Source of the DNA: Methylacidimicrobium sp. B4
GTDB lineage: Bacteria; Verrucomicrobiota; Verrucomicrobiia; Methylacidiphilales; Methylacidiphilaceae
Direction of reading: 5' to 3'
Length of the DNA: 64,000 bases
Assembly: GCF_017310545.1 (NCBI RefSeq)
Contig: NZ_CP066203.1
Location: 434,001 to 498,000, forward strand
Part shown: positions 19,019 through 31,109 of the stretch, one piece after another
How the letters are laid out: every line of letters starts with the position of its first letter
How positions within the stretch are numbered: the first letter of the stretch is position 1
The notes under the pieces: generated by a model
What the model was told of the DNA's origin: nothing
Database searches by the model: none
What the model saw: the letters and a program-made list of their open reading frames with translations, nothing else
Program-made: the position numbers and the translations under genes

Positions 19019-19435
19019 TTAGTACCGCTGGCCGGGAGGCTTCTGGGCGGCGTAGGGGCGGGTGGTGTAGCGGATCTGTCGATCCGCGGCCTCCATCCGG
19101 TCGAGGAAAAAGCCGGGCTCCTCCTTCGGCCGCTGCACCAGAAAGGAGAGCATCGTGCTCTGATACCCCTGCTGCCGGTTGTAGCCGCTAAGCCGGATGT
19201 AGTCCTGAGGACGCGCCTTCCGGCACTCCGCCAGCTCGTGCATCACCCCCGCCGGATCCTTCAGGTCGAACATCGGCAGCCCCCACATCTCCCAGTAGAC
19301 ATTCCGCGGATGCGGATCATCGGTAAACTCGATGCTCACCGCCCATCCGTTGCGCAAGCAGTACTCCACCTGCGCCCGAATCTCCTCCTCGGTCAAATCC
19401 GGCAGATACGAAAACGTCCCTTGCGTCAGTCTCAT
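19019..19435 (-). CDS. rbcS: RuBisCO small subunit (red-type form I)
   Basis: Small subunit of the L8S8 CO2-fixing enzyme. The start at 19435 is chosen for its upstream AGGAAGGAGGCAAGCG and gives 138 residues. The N-terminus [13 protein letters not shown] and the segment [20 protein letters not shown] are typical of the red-type lineage, as is the extended C-terminal region ([19 protein letters not shown]). It lies 16 bases behind rbcL in one operon. A strong hairpin follows. Confidence 0.96.
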
Positions 19436-19451
19436 TCGCTTGCCTCCTTCC

Positions 19452-20975
<1,524 letters not shown>

Positions 20976-21014
20976 TTATACCCCGCCACCATGAATAATA
21001 CTATTTGATTGTTT

Positions 21015-21029
21015 TTATTTAGCTCATAA
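21015..21029. promoter_or_regulatory. Candidate CbbR operator between rbcL and cbbR
   Basis: TTAT-N7-ATAA palindrome with a central AGCT, in the AT-rich 126-bp region between the divergent rbcL and cbbR starts. LysR-type regulators such as CbbR usually bind AT-rich dyads of the T-N11-A kind in such gaps. The spacing differs from the classic consensus, so this is only a candidate. Confidence 0.4.
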
Positions 21030-21038
21030 GTTGAATAA

Positions 21039-22103
21039 ATGGATGTAACCCTGCAGCAACTGCGCGTCTTTGAGGCAATCGCTCATCACCGGAGCTTTAC
21101 CAAGGCGGCAGAGGCCGTTCACTTGACGCAGCCAGCCGTATCGATCGCGATCAAGCGCTTCGAGGAGGCGGTCGGCCTCCCGCTCTTCGAGCGCATCGGC
21201 AAAAAGATCTATCTCACTCGCGCAGGGGAGACCCTGGCGGAGCAGATTCGCGCCATTCGCCGCGAGGTCGATGCTCTGGGAAACCTCGTGCATTCGCTCC
21301 AAGGGGGAGTCCAGGGCGCGCTGCACATCGCGGGAGTCACGACCTGCAAATATTTCATGCCCCATCTGCTGGGAGCCTTCGTCCGCTCCTATCCCGGAGT
21401 CCGTCCGAGCCTGACGGTCACCAACCGGGCGCGAGTGCTCCAACGGCTTGCGGAAAACCAGGACGACCTGGTCGTAATGGGTCAGGTACCCGAAGGTCTC
21501 CCGGTGGAGACCTTTCCCTTTTTGGACAACTCGCTGGTCGTCGTGGGCTGGGCGGGTCACCCACTCGCCGGGAGGCGGAGCATCCCGCTGCGGGAGCTGC
21601 TCCAGGAGCGGTTCTTGAGTCGCGAGCCCGGCTCCGGAACGCGCGCGGCCGTCGATCAGGCCTTTCGACACGAAAGGATGGCCGTCGAGCCCTACATGGA
21701 GCTCGGGAGCAGCGAGGCCATCAAGCAGGCCGTGATCGCTGGCCTGGGCATTTCGGTGCTTTCCGCGCGCAATATCCGTCCCGAGGTGGAGCAGGGACGT
21801 CTTTGCATCCTCGATGTTGCCGGCTTTCCTCTGCAGCGGCACTGGTATGCCGTTCATCCCAGGGGGAAGCATCTCTCCCGTGCCGCGGAAACCTTCCTCG
21901 CCTTTCTCCGCACGGAAGGCGCCGCCATCCTGGAAGACGAGCCAGACGGAGCCGCTTTGACTCCGGCTAAGGGGCAACCGGAGAGGCGTCCGAATGGACG
22001 GAGCGATCCCGACGATAATCGAGGGCGGGAGCCAGCCGCCAATACCGCTGGATCTCGCAGAGCAGATAGAAGAGCTTCACCCGGAGCCAGAGAGACAGGT
22101 TGA
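21039..22103 (+). CDS. cbbR: LysR-family regulator of the RuBisCO operon, CbbR-like
   Basis: LysR-type regulator of 354 residues. The N-terminal winged helix-turn-helix is clear (LQQLRVFEAIAHHRSFTKAA followed by HLTQPAVSIAIKRFEE), and the rest is the periplasmic-binding-like effector domain. Its divergent placement from rbcL is the standard CbbR arrangement; CbbR senses metabolites such as NADPH or RuBP. About 45 extra C-terminal residues are Arg/Pro-rich and not LysR-like. They overlap the 3' end of the convergent flavoprotein gene by 137 bases. No ribosome-binding site is seen before the ATG. Confidence 0.9.
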   Translation: MDVTLQQLRVFEAIAHHRSFTKAAEAVHLTQPAVSIAIKRFEEAVGLPLFERIGKKIYLTRAGETLAEQIRAIRREVDALGNLVHSLQGGVQGALHIAGVTTCKYFMPHLLGAFVRSYPGVRPSLTVTNRARVLQRLAENQDDLVVMGQVPEGLPVETFPFLDNSLVVVGWAGHPLAGRRSIPLRELLQERFLSREPGSGTRAAVDQAFRHERMAVEPYMELGSSEAIKQAVIAGLGISVLSARNIRPEVEQGRLCILDVAGFPLQRHWYAVHPRGKHLSRAAETFLAFLRTEGAAILEDEPDGAALTPAKGQPERRPNGRSDPDDNRGREPAANTAGSRRADRRASPGARETG

Positions 22104-23259
22104 GGTCGTTATTTCCGGCCAGAAGATGAATGACGGCCTTCTTCATGGATCGGGGCGGACGCGGCGTCATGAAGACCTCGAAGGCGCGATCGTCGTAGAA
22201 CATCCGGATCATCTCCTCGAATCGGCGCGCGAGCGCATGGATCCGCCGGGTATATTCGCGTTGCTGCCGAGAGGAGAATCCAGCCGATCCGTCCGGTTGA
22301 CCCAGGATCCTCTCGGCCGCCGCTACCCCGCCCTCCAAGGCGACCGTCACACCCGAGGAAAAGACCGGATCCAGGAACCCGGCCGCATCCCCCGCGACCA
22401 GCCACCGGGCACCCGCCAGATGCTCCAAGCGATAGGTATAGTCCGCCGTGGTTCGGAAGGGAGAGATCGCTTCCGCCTTTTCCATCCGTGACCGCAACTC
22501 TCTGCTCTCCTGCACCGACGCCTCGAAGAGCTCCCGAGGACCGTTCTTCCCACCCTGAAAGGCCGCAAGCGGTCGCACCATGCCCACCGATGTCTTTTCC
22601 TCATCGAGGGGAATCAGCCAGAACCAGCCACCAGCGAGGCGGACCACCGTGATATTTCCCGCAGCCTTGCCCGGGCTGCGCCGTACATTCCGGAAATGGG
22701 CGTAGACCGCCATCTTCTTTGGGATACCCAGGTCGGTTCTGGGCAGGCGCAGGACCTTGCTCAAGAAGGGTTCCCGTCCCGTCGCATCGATGAGCCATCG
22801 CCCTTGGGCCCGTTCGGCCTTCCCGCCAAGCTCATACTCCACCTCGACCCCATCCGGCCCCTCCCGGAAGCTCCGCGCCGAGGCTCCGACCCGAATCGTC
22901 GCTCCCGACTCCCTGGCATGATCGAGGAGAAGCGCGTCAAACTTTGCCCGCTCTACCTGAAAGGTCTTGTCGTAGGGCTCGGCCAGGCTCTCTCCGAACC
23001 AGAAGCGCCGAAAGGCGCTCCCGTCGCTCAAGACAAACTCGGCTCCGGGCTTGATCATGAAACCCGCCTTTTGCACCTTTTCCCAGACCCCGATCTTCAC
23101 GAGCTCCCGATTGCAAAAGGGCAAGAGCGATTCCCCGATATGAAAACGAGGAAAGGTCTCTTTCTCGAGCAGCAGGACCCGCTTTCCGCTCCGGGCCAGG
23201 AGGCTTGCAGCGGCGCATCCCGCCGGACCGCTTCCCACGATAATGACGGAGTCCTTCAT
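21967..23259 (-). CDS. FAD-dependent oxidoreductase, flavin halogenase-like
   Basis: A 430-residue flavoprotein. The N-terminal FAD-binding IIVGSGPAGCAAASLL is followed by FPRFHIGESLLP (residues 36-47), a motif of flavin halogenases and related monooxygenases. GWFWLIPLDE lies at 211-220, comparable to the halogenase WxWxIP motif, and the second FAD motif is LVAGDAAGFLDPVFSSGV. It could be a halogenase, a hydroxylase or a reductase. The start overlaps the upstream acyl carrier protein stop (ATGA), so the substrate may be carrier-bound. The 3' end overlaps cbbR. Confidence 0.82.
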   Translation of the reverse strand: MKDSVIIVGSGPAGCAAASLLARSGKRVLLLEKETFPRFHIGESLLPFCNRELVKIGVWEKVQKAGFMIKPGAEFVLSDGSAFRRFWFGESLAEPYDKTFQVERAKFDALLLDHARESGATIRVGASARSFREGPDGVEVEYELGGKAERAQGRWLIDATGREPFLSKVLRLPRTDLGIPKKMAVYAHFRNVRRSPGKAAGNITVVRLAGGWFWLIPLDEEKTSVGMVRPLAAFQGGKNGPRELFEASVQESRELRSRMEKAEAISPFRTTADYTYRLEHLAGARWLVAGDAAGFLDPVFSSGVTVALEGGVAAAERILGQPDGSAGFSSRQQREYTRRIHALARRFEEMIRMFYDDRAFEVFMTPRPPRSMKKAVIHLLAGNNDLNLSLWLRVKLFYLLCEIQRYWRLAPALDYRRDRSVHSDASPVAP

Positions 23260-23706: not shown

Positions 23707-24912
23707 ATGGTCACGGTAACCGGAATCGGGATGGTCACGGCCCTCGGCGGGGATGTCGTCTCTTCCTGGGCCCAGATGCTCGAAGGGAAGGACGGCGCCC
23801 GACCGGTCGATCTCTTTTCCACCGAGGGGTGCCGCTGCCGCTCGGCCGCCCAGGCGGCTCTACCACCGCTTCCCTTGCTCTCTCCCGGAGAGCTCCGCAG
23901 GCTCCCTCGCGCCTCGCGGCTAGCGATTCCCGCCGCGCGGGAAGCCCTCGCCCAGGCAGGGCTCCTGGCCGCCGGAGGGCAGGCGAGGCTTCCGCAGATC
24001 CCTCTCTGCCTTGCGACCACCGAAGGAGGGATGGAGCTCGGAGAACGATTCCTCGAGGAACTTCTCGCGGGCCGGAAAGGGCATCTCCAATGGGTGGGCC
24101 GCTACCAGCCCCAGCAGCAGGCCATCGATCTTCAGCGAGCCTTCGGCCTGCGCGGCCGCGTGCTCGTGATCGCCAACTCCTGCTCCAGCGGGGCCGATGC
24201 CATCGGTTCTGCGGCCCAGATGATCTGGTCCGGGGAAGCCGACTGCGTCCTGACAGGAGGGTTTGAGGCTCTTGCGGAAACGGTCTTCGTCGGATTCGAC
24301 TCGCTGCGGATCCTCACGACCGATCGCTGCGCCCCATTCGACCAAGGGCGAACCGGGCTCCTCCTCGGGGAAGGAGCCGCCTTCCTCGTGCTCGAGAGCC
24401 TGGAACACGCATCGGGCCGCCAGGCACGGCCGCTCTGCCAGATCACCGGATATGGCCAAGCGACCGACCGCCATCATCTCACCCAGCCCGCACCCGACGG
24501 GAGCGCGCTCTGCCGAGCCATCGAGTCGGCTCTCGCTCAGGCCGAGGTGGCGCCCGAAGCGATCGGCTACCTGAACGCGCACGGAACCGGCACTTCCTTG
24601 AATGACGAATCGGAGGCCAACGCCTATTCCCGGTTCTTCGGGATCGGCTGGCGAACTCCGCGGATGAGCAGCGTCAAGGCGATGATCGGCCACACGCTGG
24701 GCGCCGCCGGAGCGATCGAAGCGGTCTTTTCCATCCTCGCCCTGCAGACGGGCCGGCTTCCTCCCCAGTGGAACTCCGTCGCTCCCCTTCCTGAGGTCGA
24801 GGAAGCGCTGGTCCGTCCTGGGGAACCCCTCCAGACACTCAACCACGTGATGAGCGCAAACGTCGGGTTCGGCGGCTCCAACGCAGCTTTGGTCTTTTCC
24901 CGACATGATTGA
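23707..24912 (+). CDS. Beta-ketoacyl-ACP synthase, FabF-like
   Basis: Ketosynthase of 401 residues that extends an acyl chain by decarboxylative condensation. The Cys-His-His triad is complete: Cys159 in ANSCSSGADA, His292 in NAHGTGTSLND and His329 in SVKAMIGHTLGAAG. The start at 23707 (MVTVTGIGMVT) has AGGGAG upstream and matches family starts; ATGs at 23668-23680 are alternatives. It overlaps the next ketosynthase-like gene by 8 bases, as in type II polyketide KS-CLF pairs. The 175-bp gap upstream probably holds promoters for both directions. Confidence 0.9.
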   Translation: MVTVTGIGMVTALGGDVVSSWAQMLEGKDGARPVDLFSTEGCRCRSAAQAALPPLPLLSPGELRRLPRASRLAIPAAREALAQAGLLAAGGQARLPQIPLCLATTEGGMELGERFLEELLAGRKGHLQWVGRYQPQQQAIDLQRAFGLRGRVLVIANSCSSGADAIGSAAQMIWSGEADCVLTGGFEALAETVFVGFDSLRILTTDRCAPFDQGRTGLLLGEGAAFLVLESLEHASGRQARPLCQITGYGQATDRHHLTQPAPDGSALCRAIESALAQAEVAPEAIGYLNAHGTGTSLNDESEANAYSRFFGIGWRTPRMSSVKAMIGHTLGAAGAIEAVFSILALQTGRLPPQWNSVAPLPEVEEALVRPGEPLQTLNHVMSANVGFGGSNAALVFSRHD

Positions 24913-25963
24913 TCGCCTCCTTCTCCATGCGAGCGCGGTCGGCGTCGTTTCTCCCGCCGGCTTCGGGGCCGAAAGCCTTACCCAGCCGACCCCGCCCGAG
25001 GAGCGTGCGATGCAACTCGCTTCTTCCCCGTCGCGGAGCTTCCCCTTCTTCGCGGTCGATCGATCCCATCCCCGGTGGCGCGCATGGGCCGAAGAGCCGC
25101 GGCTTCGCCGCTCGGGCGGCCTAGCGCAATTCCTTCTCGAGGCGATCCGGCAGGCGCTGGCGGGAATCGATGAGCCATCCCGCAGACGCATGGGCCTCAT
25201 TGCGGCCTTCAATAACGGGAGCATCGCCCATATCGCGCGCTTCTTTGCTGGCTATCGAACCCAGGGTCGTCGATTCGCCAGCCCCCTCCTCTTTCCCGAA
25301 ACCGTTTACAACGCGGCAACCAGCCACGCGGCGGCCGTACTCGGGCTCGGCGGTCCCAGCTGCTCGATCGTCGGCGATGAATCCGCCTGGGTCGAAGGCC
25401 TCCGCATGGCTAGGGTCTGGATCGAGCTCGGACACGCAGCCACGGTTCTTCTCGCCGCATCCGAAGAGGTCACTCCCGTGACCCTCGACGCCTTCCGGTG
25501 CGCCGGCTGGCTTCGGCGCTCTCGTCCCTTTCGACCCGCCGAGGGTGCCGTCGCGGTCCTTCTGACCGCCCATCCGGAAAGCGCGCTCTTTGCTCTCGAA
25601 GCGGCACCGGAGAGCCTCCCGTATACGAGCCGAAAGGAGCTGCTTCCGGTTGCCGCCCGACTCGCCCGAAAGATGCCGTCCCATCTTCCGGTCTACTCGA
25701 CGGCCCAAGGCTCTTGGCTCGGGGCGCTCGAAAAAGCCCTGCTCGGTTCCCGCCCCGTAGCGGAATCCTACCCATACCTCGGAGAAGCCTTCCCGGTTTC
25801 CGCCGGATGGCAGACGATCCGCGCCGCTACCCTCCTCTCCGAAGCGCGCCCGGAAATCCTGGTTCCGGTTTGGGGTAGCAGCCACCAGCTTTCGTGGCTC
25901 CACCTCCGCTTCGTCCGGCACGGCGCGCTCCCGATCCCGCGGCCGCGTCGACCCGAAGCATGA
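24905..25963 (+). CDS. Ketosynthase-like protein without active-site Cys (chain-length-factor-like)
   Basis: A 352-residue divergent thiolase-fold protein. The segment YNAATSHAAAVLGLGGPSCS (residues 135-154) matches the ketosynthase stretch before the nucleophile. The expected active-site Cys (as in TAC-S/A) is replaced by IVGDESAW, with Asp158 at or near that position. The NAHGTGT motif is not seen. Such proteins act as chain-length factors in heterodimers with an active KS. Its 8-base overlap with the intact ketosynthase supports that role; the C-terminal third is poorly conserved. Confidence 0.75.
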   Translation: MIDRLLLHASAVGVVSPAGFGAESLTQPTPPEERAMQLASSPSRSFPFFAVDRSHPRWRAWAEEPRLRRSGGLAQFLLEAIRQALAGIDEPSRRRMGLIAAFNNGSIAHIARFFAGYRTQGRRFASPLLFPETVYNAATSHAAAVLGLGGPSCSIVGDESAWVEGLRMARVWIELGHAATVLLAASEEVTPVTLDAFRCAGWLRRSRPFRPAEGAVAVLLTAHPESALFALEAAPESLPYTSRKELLPVAARLARKMPSHLPVYSTAQGSWLGALEKALLGSRPVAESYPYLGEAFPVSAGWQTIRAATLLSEARPEILVPVWGSSHQLSWLHLRFVRHGALPIPRPRRPEA

Positions 25964-25985: not shown

Positions 25986-27011
25986 TCACGACGCCATCGC
26001 TCTGCCGCACTCCGAAGAGCGGAGCGAGGAAGAGACGGTGATCCAGCTTTCCCGGCTCGGCTCACAGCCCGCCTCCTCGATCGCTCGCAAGACCCGCTCC
26101 TCCGTCATGATCCAGCGGCCCGGGCGATAGAGAGGGTAATCGTCCCTCCATTCGCTCGGAGTCAGATTGATGGTCGCCAAGTTCGCTCCCGCCCGGAGCG
26201 CCCGCACATACCCGGCCGCGTGGCAGAGGTTCAAGGCGCTCACAGCCGGGATCACCCAGTGGGGCGAGGAGAGCCGGAGGACGGCGACCGCGTTGAGCGT
26301 CCGATCCAGATCCGCGGCCGGCATCCCGAAGAGAGGGGTCCCTTCTCCGGGGATAAACGGGCTCACGCTGCAACCGGCGAGCGGCAGGGAGCAGAGCAGG
26401 TCGAGCGTCTCTGCCGCTCGATCGTGGGTCTCCATCGGCAGTCCTTGGATCCAGCCCGAAGAGACGCTCCAACCCGTTCGCGCAAGATACCGGATCGCCT
26501 CGAGCCGCTGCTCGAGCGTGCCCGGGCACTGCAGCAGCCGATAGTGCGCGGCATCCCCCGTTTCGAGCTTCAGGATATAACCCCGCGCCCCCGCCTGCTT
26601 GAGCTCGTCGTAGCGGCGAAGATCGAAGGTGCCGAGGCAAACGCTGATGCCCAGACGGCCCTCCTTCGCCAGCTCTTCGATCACAGGCAGCACGACCTCC
26701 CGCAGGACGACGGGATCCTCTCCGGCCTGAAAATTGAGATCGGTGACCGACGCCGGCAGACCCTCCCCAATCACCCGCCGAACGGCGTCTCGCGCCAGGC
26801 GGAATCGGCGAAGAGCCCCATTGTCCCGACGCATTCCACAATAGGCGCAATTCTGCCGGCAGAAGTTGCCGACCTCGATCACCCCACGAACAAACACCCG
26901 TCTCCCGAAGACCGCCTTGCGAGTCGATTCCGCCCGATCCCAGAGCGCTCGTTGCGCGTCCGATCGCGCCTCCAGCGCGACTCCTCTCCAACCCGGCTCT
27001 CCCGTTTTCAT
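25986..27011 (-). CDS. Radical SAM enzyme, HydE/BioB-like
   Basis: A 341-residue radical SAM protein. The [4Fe-4S]-binding CxxxCxxC motif is CRQNCAYC (Cys51, Cys55, Cys58), preceded by RGVIEVGNF. SAM-binding features include LNFQAGEDPVV and LKLETGD. The overall layout resembles HydE, PylB and BioB. No hydrogenase or pyrrolysine genes are nearby. The gene converges on the chain-length-factor-like gene inside an acyl-chain cluster, so it may modify the product or make an unusual starter. The specific reaction is unknown. Confidence 0.8.
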   Translation of the reverse strand: MKTGEPGWRGVALEARSDAQRALWDRAESTRKAVFGRRVFVRGVIEVGNFCRQNCAYCGMRRDNGALRRFRLARDAVRRVIGEGLPASVTDLNFQAGEDPVVLREVVLPVIEELAKEGRLGISVCLGTFDLRRYDELKQAGARGYILKLETGDAAHYRLLQCPGTLEQRLEAIRYLARTGWSVSSGWIQGLPMETHDRAAETLDLLCSLPLAGCSVSPFIPGEGTPLFGMPAADLDRTLNAVAVLRLSSPHWVIPAVSALNLCHAAGYVRALRAGANLATINLTPSEWRDDYPLYRPGRWIMTEERVLRAIEEAGCEPSRESWITVSSSLRSSECGRAMAS

Positions 27012-27120: not shown

Positions 27121-27552
27121 ATGCGATCCAGAGTTGCCGTGGCTTCCCGCTCGCTCGTTCTGATCGGAGCGATCGGCGCAGGCTGGCTCGCAACAGCGGA
27201 ACTCCTTCCGTCTCGTGTCCTGGCCAGCAGCGCCTCCTCCACCGACCCCTCCCCCGAATGGACTACCACGCATTCCGACGAGCCAAGCGCCACTCCTACG
27301 CCAAAAGCGCCAGCCAAGCCCCCGCAGAAGAATGGAACCGCCACCAGCCCCCAGACAAGCCGGAAACGTCCGGCCGCGCAAGCCAAGGGGAGCGGCTCCG
27401 CAGCGACCCAACCCTCCCGTAAAAGCGACCAAGCAGAGAAAGTCGCCAAGCCTGAGCCGATCGGAATTCAACTCGAGAAGCTCTTCCGCGGGATTGGTGC
27501 CGACCTCGAGGAGTTCTTCGTAGGCACGCGCACCGTCGACAAGGATGACTGA
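27121..27552 (+). CDS. Exported low-complexity hypothetical protein
   Basis: A 143-residue protein with an N-terminal signal sequence (LVLIGAIGAGWLATAELL), a Ser/Pro/Thr/Lys-rich middle and a short ordered C-terminus (IGADLEEFFVGTRTVDKDD). No domain was recognised. A degenerate second copy of the C-terminal motif lies about 300 bases downstream. The gene lies between the radical SAM gene (divergent) and a CHAP-like gene. It probably acts outside the cytoplasm; a role in the neighbouring pathway is not shown. Confidence 0.6.
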   Translation: MRSRVAVASRSLVLIGAIGAGWLATAELLPSRVLASSASSTDPSPEWTTTHSDEPSATPTPKAPAKPPQKNGTATSPQTSRKRPAAQAKGSGSAATQPSRKSDQAEKVAKPEPIGIQLEKLFRGIGADLEEFFVGTRTVDKDD

Positions 27553-27949: not shown

Positions 27950-28582
27950 TCAAAAGAGCGATGTCGTCCGCGCGGGCATGGCCGAGCGCGGATTCGGCTT
28001 GACCGATGCCACCCGACTCCCGCGCTGAACCGGCCGGCTTTGGCTCACCGTCCGGACGGGCGTCGCTCGCGGCGCACTCTGGGCCGGCGGCACCGAATAG
28101 GCTACCGGAGCAGGAGAAGCTCGACCAACAAATCGATAGTGCTGGATTCGAGCATACTCCTTGGGCCAGACATTCCAGAGCGAACCGGGTTGACGGAAGT
28201 CGGAGTACCAGTTTCCCCGATAGAACACCTCGATATGGCCGCAGTGGCTCCTCTTTCTCGGAAGAAGGATTCGCACGTCGTAGTTCCTCGGTTGGACCCT
28301 GGCCGAGCTCTTCACATAGCAGCCGGTCTTCAACAGCGGCTCCCCATATTCCTTGGCGTAGTCCCGCCGCTCCAGCTTCTTGCCGGTCAGCTCCTCCACT
28401 GCCACGCGCACCGCCCGCGCGCACATCCCGTGGGAGTGTTTCTGCTTCGGCAGGGCTCGCTCGAACGCCTTGGGATTGGGAGTCGCCGGGACAGTGGAAA
28501 CGGCCCCACCGCGCTGGCCATAGCCCGCTGCAGCCGCCGAAAAGACGATTACGCCACTGAGGAAAATCTTGGAAAAACCCAT
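27950..28582 (-). CDS. Exported CHAP/NlpC-like protein, putative peptidoglycan hydrolase
   Basis: A 210-residue protein with a signal peptide (IFLSGVIVFSAAAAGYGQ). A Cys lies in HGMCARAVRVAVEEL (near residue 52) and a His in HCGHIEVFYRGNWYSDFRQ (near 113). This Cys-then-His layout, with GHIxVF followed by WxSDF, resembles CHAP amidases. The C-terminus is Ser/Pro/Arg-rich. The start at 28582 is chosen because the signal peptide begins there; the longer frame upstream overlaps the ligase. Assignment to CHAP is by pattern only. Confidence 0.6.
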   Translation of the reverse strand: MGFSKIFLSGVIVFSAAAAGYGQRGGAVSTVPATPNPKAFERALPKQKHSHGMCARAVRVAVEELTGKKLERRDYAKEYGEPLLKTGCYVKSSARVQPRNYDVRILLPRKRSHCGHIEVFYRGNWYSDFRQPGSLWNVWPKEYARIQHYRFVGRASPAPVAYSVPPAQSAPRATPVRTVSQSRPVQRGSRVASVKPNPRSAMPARTTSLF

Positions 28583-28768
28583 TGGGTACAGGCTTATGCC
28601 GAAAAGCAGGCTTCTGAGCAAGATTTTTCTCTTTCCTTCGCAGTTAGGCCGCAGATGGCTCTGTTCCTCCAATCGATTGGTCTCGCCCCCATAGGCTGCG
28701 AATGCTAAGGAAGCTTGTGTCCGCGGTCCCGCAGTTTTCAGGATCGAGACGCGACGAAGCGGAATCAG

Positions 28769-30289
28769 GTGAACCGGCAGCCCCACGCTCGATCGGGAGG
28801 GAGAGCCTCCTCCCATTCCTCGCGCTTCCTGGGAAGCGGGGCTCCTGCGGTCCGGATCCCGTTCCCGGACGCAACGGCCTTGTGGAGAGCATGGAAACGC
28901 ACCGCATCTCGATTTGCGGATGAGCCGGCCCTCCTCCCCTTGGAGTCTGAAGCGTGGATCTCCTTTCGCGAGATTCACTCGGCGGCGCAACGCCTTGCGC
29001 GAGACTATCTATCTGGCCTCCGAAACTCCTGGATCGCCTTCTCCTTGCCCGCCGGCCCGGAATGGATCGAGACCTTTCTCGCTTGCCAGGCGGCGGGTGC
29101 GGCGGCGATGCCACTCGACGCCGGGATCCCCTCGGAGCAACTTCCCTCGGCGGCTTGTCGGCTGGGTGCCTCGTTCCTTTGGGCCTCGAACGGCTTGCAG
29201 CGGCTCGTTCCCCGCTGTCGACGTCGCGGGACCCGCCAGACGGCACTCGTCAAGATCACTTCCGGAAGCCGGGGAGAAGCCGCTTCCCTTCCCTTCTCCG
29301 CCGAAGCCATGATCGAGGATGGGCGAAATACCTCCGCCGCCATGGGCACGAGCGAAACGGACCGCGCCCTGGCTCTCCTCCCCTTTGGCCACTCTTATGC
29401 GCTTGGGAGCTTGGTCCTGCCCTTCCTGCTTCGGGGCATGCGCCTCGTCTCGGCCAAGGAGTTTCTGGTGAGCCAGATCCCAGCCTGGATCCGCAAGCAC
29501 GAAATCACCTTCTTCCCCTCGGTCCCCGACATCTGGCGCGCCTTGGGGCAGCTCCCGGGCCCGGTCTCCCTTCCCTCCCTCCGGATCGCCGTTTCCGCCG
29601 GTGCGGTCCTGCCGGCCGAAACGGCGCGGCGCATCCAGGAACGCTTTTCCGTAAAGATCCACAGCCTTTACGGCTCCTCCGAAACCGGGACCATCAGCTA
29701 CGACAGGCCGGGAGACGCCACCCTCGAGGGTCGCTCCGTCGGAACGGCTCTTCCGCGCGTCTGGGTGACGATCACGCGCGCTCGACGAGTCTCCGTTTCC
29801 AGCCGGGCCCTTTACGGCCGGCGCCAGCGCGTCACCCTCCCCGATCTCGCGCAATGGACCGAGATCGGGGAGATTCGCTTGCTCGGTCGAGCTGATCGGA
29901 TCGTGACGATGGGCGGCCGCAACATCCATCCGGCAGAGGTCGAGGCCCTTTTGCGCCAACTCCCCTCGGTAACCGACGCCCATGTCCGCGCCGTGCGCAG
30001 CCGATCCCGGAACTACCTGGTTGCCGCCGTGGAAAGCTCGAAGAGCTCAAGCGAGCTCCTGCGGCTGCTTGCGGCTGTCGCCCCGGAATGGAAGATCCCG
30101 CGCCTCCTCCTCTGCTTTCCCGAGCTTCCGCGCAATGCGCGAGGAAAAGTGGAGGAACAATCGCTCCAGGCGCTCTTCCGGGATGCCTATCGACCGTTCG
30201 CGTCAGCCAAGGCGAGCAAGATTCGACCTCCGGCAACCGGCTCGTCCGATTCCCGGATCGAGACGGAGAACTCCGCCAGCCGGCCGTAA
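28769..30289 (+). CDS. AMP-dependent acyl/aryl-CoA (or ACP) ligase-like protein
   Basis: Adenylate-forming enzyme of about 506 residues. Recognisable motifs are VKITSGSRGEA (the P-loop, normally TSGTTGxPK), SLYGSSETGTIS, the hinge GRADRIVTMGGRNIHPAEVE and the C-terminal NARGKVEE with its catalytic Lys. The P-loop lacks the usual Thr-Gly-x-Pro-Lys. Such ligases activate carboxylic acids for loading onto CoA or ACP, which fits the ketosynthase cluster. The start is uncertain: GTG 28769 is used, and TTG 28715 is possible. The 3' end overlaps the hot-dog gene by 103 bases. Confidence 0.75.
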   Translation: MNRQPHARSGGRASSHSSRFLGSGAPAVRIPFPDATALWRAWKRTASRFADEPALLPLESEAWISFREIHSAAQRLARDYLSGLRNSWIAFSLPAGPEWIETFLACQAAGAAAMPLDAGIPSEQLPSAACRLGASFLWASNGLQRLVPRCRRRGTRQTALVKITSGSRGEAASLPFSAEAMIEDGRNTSAAMGTSETDRALALLPFGHSYALGSLVLPFLLRGMRLVSAKEFLVSQIPAWIRKHEITFFPSVPDIWRALGQLPGPVSLPSLRIAVSAGAVLPAETARRIQERFSVKIHSLYGSSETGTISYDRPGDATLEGRSVGTALPRVWVTITRARRVSVSSRALYGRRQRVTLPDLAQWTEIGEIRLLGRADRIVTMGGRNIHPAEVEALLRQLPSVTDAHVRAVRSRSRNYLVAAVESSKSSSELLRLLAAVAPEWKIPRLLLCFPELPRNARGKVEEQSLQALFRDAYRPFASAKASKIRPPATGSSDSRIETENSASRP

Positions 30290-30612
30290 AGGCGTTCCCG
30301 CTTGACCTCGACGATGAGCGTCTGGCCGGGCAGGGCGGCCCGCTTGAATTGGAATCCAAGGATCTGCGCGAGCAGGAGAGGTTGCGGCTCTCTTAGGCCG
30401 AGAAGCTCCGACCAGAGGCAGCCTGCGGCCTGCGCCCCGCATTCGACCAGAAGGACTCCGGGAAAGAGCGCCCTGCCGGGAAAATGATCGGCAAAGACCG
30501 GCAGGGACGGGTCGAGCACTGTCTTCGCACGGGCGCACGCTCCCTCCCGATCGATCTCGACCTCGTGGATCCAGGTAAATCCGGGGCCATGCGGCAGCTC
30601 CGGCGCGCTCAT
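30187..30612 (-). CDS. FabZ-like hot-dog dehydratase
   Basis: A 141-residue hot-dog protein. FADHFPGRALFPGVLLVECG (residues 40-59) holds the conserved HFPG...PG(V/M)...E core of FabZ/FabA 3-hydroxyacyl-ACP dehydratases, with candidate catalytic His43 and Glu57. It resembles the small ApeI/FabZ-type dehydratases found in polyene clusters. It converges on the AMP-ligase gene. The ATG at 30612 overlaps the stop of the upstream exported gene (ATGA), so they are co-translated. Confidence 0.8.
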   Translation of the reverse strand: MSAPELPHGPGFTWIHEVEIDREGACARAKTVLDPSLPVFADHFPGRALFPGVLLVECGAQAAGCLWSELLGLREPQPLLLAQILGFQFKRAALPGQTLIVEVKRERLYGRLAEFSVSIRESDEPVAGGRILLALADANGR

Positions 30613-31109
30613 GAGGGGTCGTCGAGAGATGAGGTGGGCGAGCCGCTTCGTCCTGCGATCGGCCCGCGGGCCTTCGGGAGGAGCATCCCGCTCGCCGAAC
30701 GAAGAACCAAGACCGTGAAGCGCTCCCCGTGGAGAGTAACGCCGACGTCATCGCCGCGAATCCAGCTGGCGGGAAGATGCCTGGGTGCCAGCACCGCAAT
30801 CGCATCTCCTCCCCGCCGGTGCGCTTCCTGGGCAAGGCGATAGAATGGATGATGAGAAAGCCCTACCGTCTCGAAGGAACGAAGCACTCCCAGGACGCGA
30901 TAGGGCCTTCGCGGCATGCGGGACCAGACCGGCACATCCTTTCCTCCGATCTGGTAGACGGCCAGAATCCGGGCCCCCGCCTCCGGGGCAGGAGGTTCTC
31001 CCCGCCAAGGGACGTAGGAGATATCTCGAGCATGGAGAGCGGCGGCGGAAAGGAGCAGGCAACCTGCCAGGAGATATCCGGCGCCAAGCGACTTTCCAAG
31101 GGTCCTCAT
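30609..31109 (-). CDS. Exported hypothetical protein
   Basis: A 166-residue protein with an N-terminal signal (SLGAGYLLAGCLLLSAAALHA), perhaps lipidated at the Cys. The central segment RRPYRVLGVLRSFETVGLSH followed by RRGGDAIAVL looks like a compact alpha/beta domain. No known family was assigned with confidence. It is the first gene of a two-gene minus-strand unit with the FabZ-like dehydratase, which ties it to the acyl-chain cluster. Confidence 0.6.
   Translation of the reverse strand: MRTLGKSLGAGYLLAGCLLLSAAALHARDISYVPWRGEPPAPEAGARILAVYQIGGKDVPVWSRMPRRPYRVLGVLRSFETVGLSHHPFYRLAQEAHRRGGDAIAVLAPRHLPASWIRGDDVGVTLHGERFTVLVLRSASGMLLPKARGPIAGRSGSPTSSLDDPS

Follow-up and report, generated by a model that had tools for sequence, protein, structure and literature searches.

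A HydE-like radical SAM gene (Table 1) in Methylacidimicrobium sp. B4, lying within the 64,000-nucleotide stretch of chromosome analysed here and referred to as the window, encodes a 341-aa protein that scores below the membership level of HydE, BioB and PylB, and the evidence leans towards a dedicated pathway enzyme rather than a hydrogenase maturase. Genes of its clade hardly ever occur in genomes without a type II FAS/PKS-like gene set, and in most cases they are linked to it. The chances are about even that the clade represents a functionally new HydE-type radical SAM class, so far only in this phylum, with a reaction that would be new to the HydE/PylB/BioB group (a carbon-skeleton or starter-forming step, or the formation of a ring or bond on a polyene chain) and would lead to a polyene-type envelope lipid or pigment.

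The clade and its separation from HydE

As judged from its sequence and a predicted structure, the 341-aa product is a radical SAM protein with a HydE fold and a single invariant three-Cys [4Fe-4S] motif. The Radical_SAM domain PF04055 is matched at 61.9 bits (cut-off 29.5), and the CxxxCxxC motif reported in the first-pass annotation is found as C51-x3-C55-x2-C58, unchanged across all 46 clade sequences. Radical SAM chemistry is established for the superfamily from such a motif and fold. As genes encoding proteins 52-92% identical to it occur in dozens of other genomes, the reading frame is no chance ORF.

Three lines of comparison agree with the HydE/PylB/BioB grouping proposed by the first-pass annotation. 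Among the NCBIfam models, HydE (TIGR03956) ranks first with 187.2 bits, followed by PylB (TIGR03910) with 109, BioB (TIGR00433) with 67 and HydG with 38, and the protein lies under all four curated cut-offs (254.6, 348.2, 225 and 312, respectively). A phmmer search of the PDB retrieved Thermotoga maritima HydE at E=5e-45, PylB at 1e-22 and BioB at 9e-8. An AlphaFold model built from 22 clade members (pLDDT 89, pTM 0.90) matches HydE with a Z-score of 42.4 and an rmsd of 2.0 Å over 329 aligned residues (31% identity), ahead of PylB (PDB 3t7v; Z 35.2, 25% identity), BioB (Z about 32) and ThiH/HydG (Z about 30.6). By sequence and predicted structure, HydE is the closest characterised relative.

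Relatives were sought in 387 genomes of the phylum and 384 of the class, and other HydE-like proteins are at most 38% identical to the clade protein. In a tree of 65 sequences, from which BioB and ThiH were left out because these outgroups had given long branches, a branch with 100/100 support sets the 46 clade members apart from the rest, and another branch does so for 14 HydE sequences, none of which groups with the clade. The clade is therefore monophyletic and separate from HydE at the level of sequence, and the tight clustering with characterised BioB or HydE that the first-pass annotation had named as contrary to its reading did not occur. Residues D91, P109, W181, S184, I188, G213, V216, S217, G222, V257, Y268 and L278 are shared by all, or almost all, members of the clade and are rare in HydE; K148, S215, S258 and T280 never vary within the clade, and only a minority of HydE proteins have them. 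Most HydE proteins carry T, R, Y, G, M, G, T, R and M at the positions of clade D91, K148, W181, S184, G213, S217, V257, Y268 and T280, respectively. Many of the clade-specific residues lie near predicted barrel strand ends in the model, which suggests a different pocket.

The clade gene was identified in 48 of the 384 class genomes, about one in eight, and a scan of genome contigs with the 341-aa protein gave matches from Verrucomicrobiota only. A plasmid search for relatives returned only HydE or unnamed radical SAM matches of less than 34% identity. A HydE-like protein on a Bradyrhizobium plasmid (NZ_CP094524.1:168721-169515; 31% identical) is named 'radical SAM protein' and carries no HydE annotation. 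A second HydE-like group, about 33% identical and with an ICxQGCxYCNMG-type motif, was observed at loci L118, L120, L121, L132 and, less surely, L117, in genomes without PF02906.

Gene neighbourhood and linkage to KS/CLF genes

The acyl-carrier cluster described by the first-pass annotation is evident in the window, where genes for an acyl carrier protein (ACP), a ketosynthase (KS), a CLF-like subunit, an AMP ligase, a FabZ-like dehydratase and a flavoenzyme all lie within about 5 kb of the radical SAM gene. The latter is convergent with the CLF-like gene, the two not being in one operon.

Table 1. Features of the radical SAM gene and its neighbourhood (window positions)
Feature	Coordinates	Strand	Remarks
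FAD-dependent halogenase/oxidoreductase-like enzyme	21967..23259	(-)	Trp_halogenase PF04820; PDB halogenases E to 7e-58
Acyl carrier protein (ACP), 91 aa	23256..23531	(-)	ATG 23531 start; longer listed ORF overlaps KS
Ketosynthase (KS), FabF-like, 414 aa	23668..24912	(+)	
CLF-like second KS subunit	24905..25963	(+)	GDE replaces catalytic Cys
HydE-like radical SAM gene, KS/CLF-associated clade	25986..27011	(-)	ATG start, 341 aa
CxxxCxxC [4Fe-4S]/SAM motif, C51-x3-C55-x2-C58	26838..26861	(-)	Invariant in 46/46 clade sequences
143-aa protein, no family assigned	27121..27552	(+)	Kept beside radical SAM gene throughout genus
ORF, no family assigned	27950..28990	(-)	C-terminal part genus-conserved; start uncertain
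AMP-binding acyl-CoA/acyl-ACP ligase-like protein	28715..30289	(+)	Start uncertain
FabZ/FabA-like 3-hydroxyacyl-ACP dehydratase	30187..30612	(-)	
166-aa protein, no family assigned	30609..31109	(-)	Directly upstream of dehydratase; genus-conserved

Two genus-conserved proteins, the 143-aa protein and the product of the ORF whose N-terminal end overlaps the AMP ligase ORF, lie between the radical SAM gene and the AMP ligase, and a partial second copy of the former is present in L001 and L042. Beyond the flavoenzyme, RuBisCO large and small subunit genes and a divergent LysR regulator (19019-22103) adjoin the cluster; in a genome of the same genus (G265, locus L042) the LysR gene has aconitase as its neighbour, and RuBisCO genes do not intervene. 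Acyltransferase (LPAT), glycosyltransferase and deacetylase genes like those of relatives' polyene-type clusters occur elsewhere in the B4 genome (L172:9484-12728, about 2.304 Mb), a long way from the window cluster, so B4 may hold the pathway at more than one locus.

Co-occurrence of the clade with KS/CLF genes, which the first-pass annotation had suggested as a check, is strongly positive. Neighbourhoods of up to 20 kb were examined around 50 clade loci and 18 other HydE-like loci, and a KS and/or CLF gene lies within 10 kb at 35 of the former and none of the latter (p=8e-8, by a Fisher test that ignores shared ancestry). A CLF profile search found CLF in 120 of the 384 class genomes: 46 of the 48 that carry the clade gene and 74 of the 336 that do not (odds ratio 81, p=3e-24, likewise ignoring shared ancestry). 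In one of the two exceptions (G448) a KS gene adjoins the clade gene at a contig start, and in the other (G453) the radical SAM gene has an in-frame stop. The 15 clade loci with no KS or CLF within 10 kb include many contig ends and some that are truly unlinked. The radical SAM gene ends 7-28 bp before KS in L095, L099 and L102, an operon-like spacing, and its orientation varies among clusters.

The radical SAM gene is an option within the pathway, as many KS/CLF clusters do without it and it is missing from 74 of the 120 CLF genomes. In G265 an insertion of roughly 180 bp (L042:9661-9840), which has terminal inverted repeats and resembles a small mobile element, breaks the gene in two, and the remaining cluster genes look intact; the insertion repeat is absent from the window. 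KS and the CLF-like subunit are fused into a protein of about 750 aa at L083:1216-3468 and L085:1279-3534. B12-binding radical SAM genes, many of them paired in tandem, adjoin KS/CLF at L139, L142, L143, L145, L149, L100 and L008, either alone or with a HydE-like gene. Mutual exclusion of the two radical SAM types is unsupported: five CLF-positive genomes have both (G397, G416, G439, G476, G519), seven have the B12-binding type only (at least 47% identity), and B12-binding genes are linked to 2 of 27 clusters with the clade gene versus 5 of 20 without it (p=0.12).

Polyene-type clusters and the proposed role

The window cluster has KS, CLF-like KS, ACP, acyl-ACP synthetase and dehydratase genes in common with aryl polyene clusters such as the E. 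coli APE cluster (PMC8253772), that is, the full KS, CLF, ACP, ligase and dehydratase set. The clusters of relatives hold further aryl polyene-like genes for ketoreductase, UbiE-type methyltransferase, acyltransferases (LPAT), glycosyltransferase, LolA and an MMPL/RND exporter, with MMPL and LolA serving export, and so cover most of the PMC8253772 list. The ketoreductase, MMPL and LolA genes occur in the clusters of distant relatives, and none was seen in the window cluster. Relative to aryl polyene clusters, the window cluster has two additions, a HydE-like radical SAM gene and one of the flavin halogenase-like type. The UbiE-type methyltransferase is present in 7 of 27 clusters with the clade gene versus none of 20 without it (p=0.015). 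Comparison of KS and the CLF-like subunit with solved structures had no diagnostic value for aryl polyene identity, FabF being nearest to both in the PDB.

The 4-hydroxybenzoate/cinnamate source genes of aryl polyene clusters were not found here. UbiC, Lyase_aromatic and Rv2949c-like genes are absent from the B4 genome, where other aryl-starter sources are possible, and among the clade genomes UbiC occurs in 0 of 46, aromatic ammonia-lyase in 2 and Rv2949c-like in 3; no MIO-type lyase motif was found in any cluster. As such aryl-starter enzymes are scarce, the starter would need another source. KS/CLF genomes that have no clade gene lack the same enzymes to the same degree, so this lack is no specific pointer to the gene, and the idea that it replaces chorismate lyase or ammonia-lyase does not help to explain where it is present or absent. 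Given the near absence of these enzymes from both genome sets, the product is possibly something other than a standard aryl polyene.

The FASII clusters for ladderanes in anammox bacteria (PMC2649909) likewise contain radical SAM genes, divergent FabF paralogues without the catalytic Cys, ACP and methyltransferase genes. They differ in that a HydE-type radical SAM is not mentioned in PMC2649909, and their phytoene-desaturase-type gene was not noticed in the window cluster. A literature search that reached few subscription journals found no description of a polyene cluster with a HydE-like enzyme.

It is plausible, with a probability of roughly 0.55, that the clade protein is a starter or head-group enzyme dedicated to the KS/CLF pathway and acts on a small carboxylate or amino-acid-sized substrate. 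The enzyme would cleave SAM to a 5'-deoxyadenosyl radical, which would abstract hydrogen from, or add to, such a molecule within the closed barrel. The product would form or modify the starter or head group, which the AMP ligase would load onto ACP, and KS/CLF would then elongate it into a polyene-type chain destined for export to the outer membrane. The substrates of HydE, PylB, BioB, ThiH and NosL are small and soluble and react inside a closed barrel, and for this reason starter or head-group formation is favoured over chain tailoring. By analogy, the precedent of this closed-barrel group slightly favours a small free substrate over a carrier-bound chain; small soluble substrates have been described for ThiH and NosL (PMC9046217).

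The foremost alternative, possible but clearly less probable, is a tailoring enzyme that abstracts hydrogen from an ACP-bound or finished polyene or acyl chain, with C-C or C-S chemistry or desaturation as the outcome; the first-pass annotation had put forward C-H or C-S chemistry on a carrier-bound chain. The KS/CLF linkage data also fit it, and B12-binding radical SAM genes hold the same place beside KS, occasionally adjoining the clade gene. However, the model predicts this closed barrel for the clade protein too, and to our knowledge no member of the HydE/PylB/BioB/ThiH group acts on a carrier-bound chain. Action on ACP-bound chains is put forward for the radical SAM genes of the anammox FASII/ladderane clusters, as a proposal only (PMC2649909, PMC9821293). 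The optional presence of the clade gene among KS/CLF clusters and its variable orientation would also suit an enzyme that supplies a cofactor or prosthetic group to a neighbour such as the flavoenzyme, or modifies a metabolite outside the pathway, and is co-localised for co-expression only; this is improbable, as the near-perfect dependence on CLF at the genome level exceeds what co-expression would require.

Hydrogenase and biotin genes, and what the clade means

The common ground between the clade protein and HydE (PDB 3iiz, 5few) comprises the closed (beta/alpha)8 radical SAM fold, the CxxxCxxC motif and the SAM-site positions Q95, G97-E98, E150 and R169, whereas the clade protein differs in its score of 187 against the 254.6-bit cut-off, its genome without [FeFe]-hydrogenase and its KS/CLF linkage. 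The neighbourhood without hydrogenase genes noted by the first-pass annotation extends to the whole B4 genome, in which a search for the [FeFe]-hydrogenase catalytic domain PF02906 found none. The domain was detected in 0 of the 48 clade genomes, B4 included, versus 13 of the 17 genomes with other HydE-like proteins. A scan of ten B4 radical SAM proteins found no HydG, and the one that resembled HydG scored as ThiH; the radical SAM proteins of this 2.37-Mb genome include true BioB, ThiH, LipA, MqnC, MqnE, HpnH and PqqE. The HydE strand-end residues R159, M224, T268 and M291, which we take to line its pocket, are replaced by K148, G213, V257 and T280 in the clade. A divergent HydE still engaged in metallocofactor assembly (for an Fe-S, hydrogenase-type or other metal site) and located near KS/CLF by chance or for regulation would agree with HydE being the closest characterised relative, but is very improbable given that PF02906 is missing from all 48 clade genomes and HydG from the ten B4 proteins scanned, and given the repeated KS/CLF linkage and the distinct clade-specific residues.

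That biotin genes are lacking nearby, as the first-pass annotation observed, also holds: the true bioB (347 bits, above the cut-off) lies just beyond the window at a chromosome position of about 424.5 kb, which puts it roughly 35 kb from the radical SAM gene, and its product retains C122, C155 and C215 at the auxiliary-cluster positions. A second biotin synthase or a PylB-type methylornithine synthase would share the structural group with the clade protein but can practically be dismissed, as the scores are far under both cut-offs, the auxiliary [2Fe-2S] Cys ligands of BioB are N93, S123 and S184 in the 341-aa protein, and a true BioB exists elsewhere in the genome. Pyrrolysine genes were not seen in the neighbourhood.

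HydE-like genes are easily named hydrogenase maturases, and here a well supported clade occurs without [FeFe]-hydrogenase and accompanies KS/CLF; where genes of this clade have been named by similarity, they are probably misannotated, and probably systematically so. From the sequence evidence, the clade enzyme probably carries out a radical reaction in the making of a polyene-type lipid or pigment. As a delimited and testable family, the clade offers access to a new radical SAM reaction; it also suggests that methanotrophs and other bacteria of the phylum make a polyene-type product yet to be characterised.
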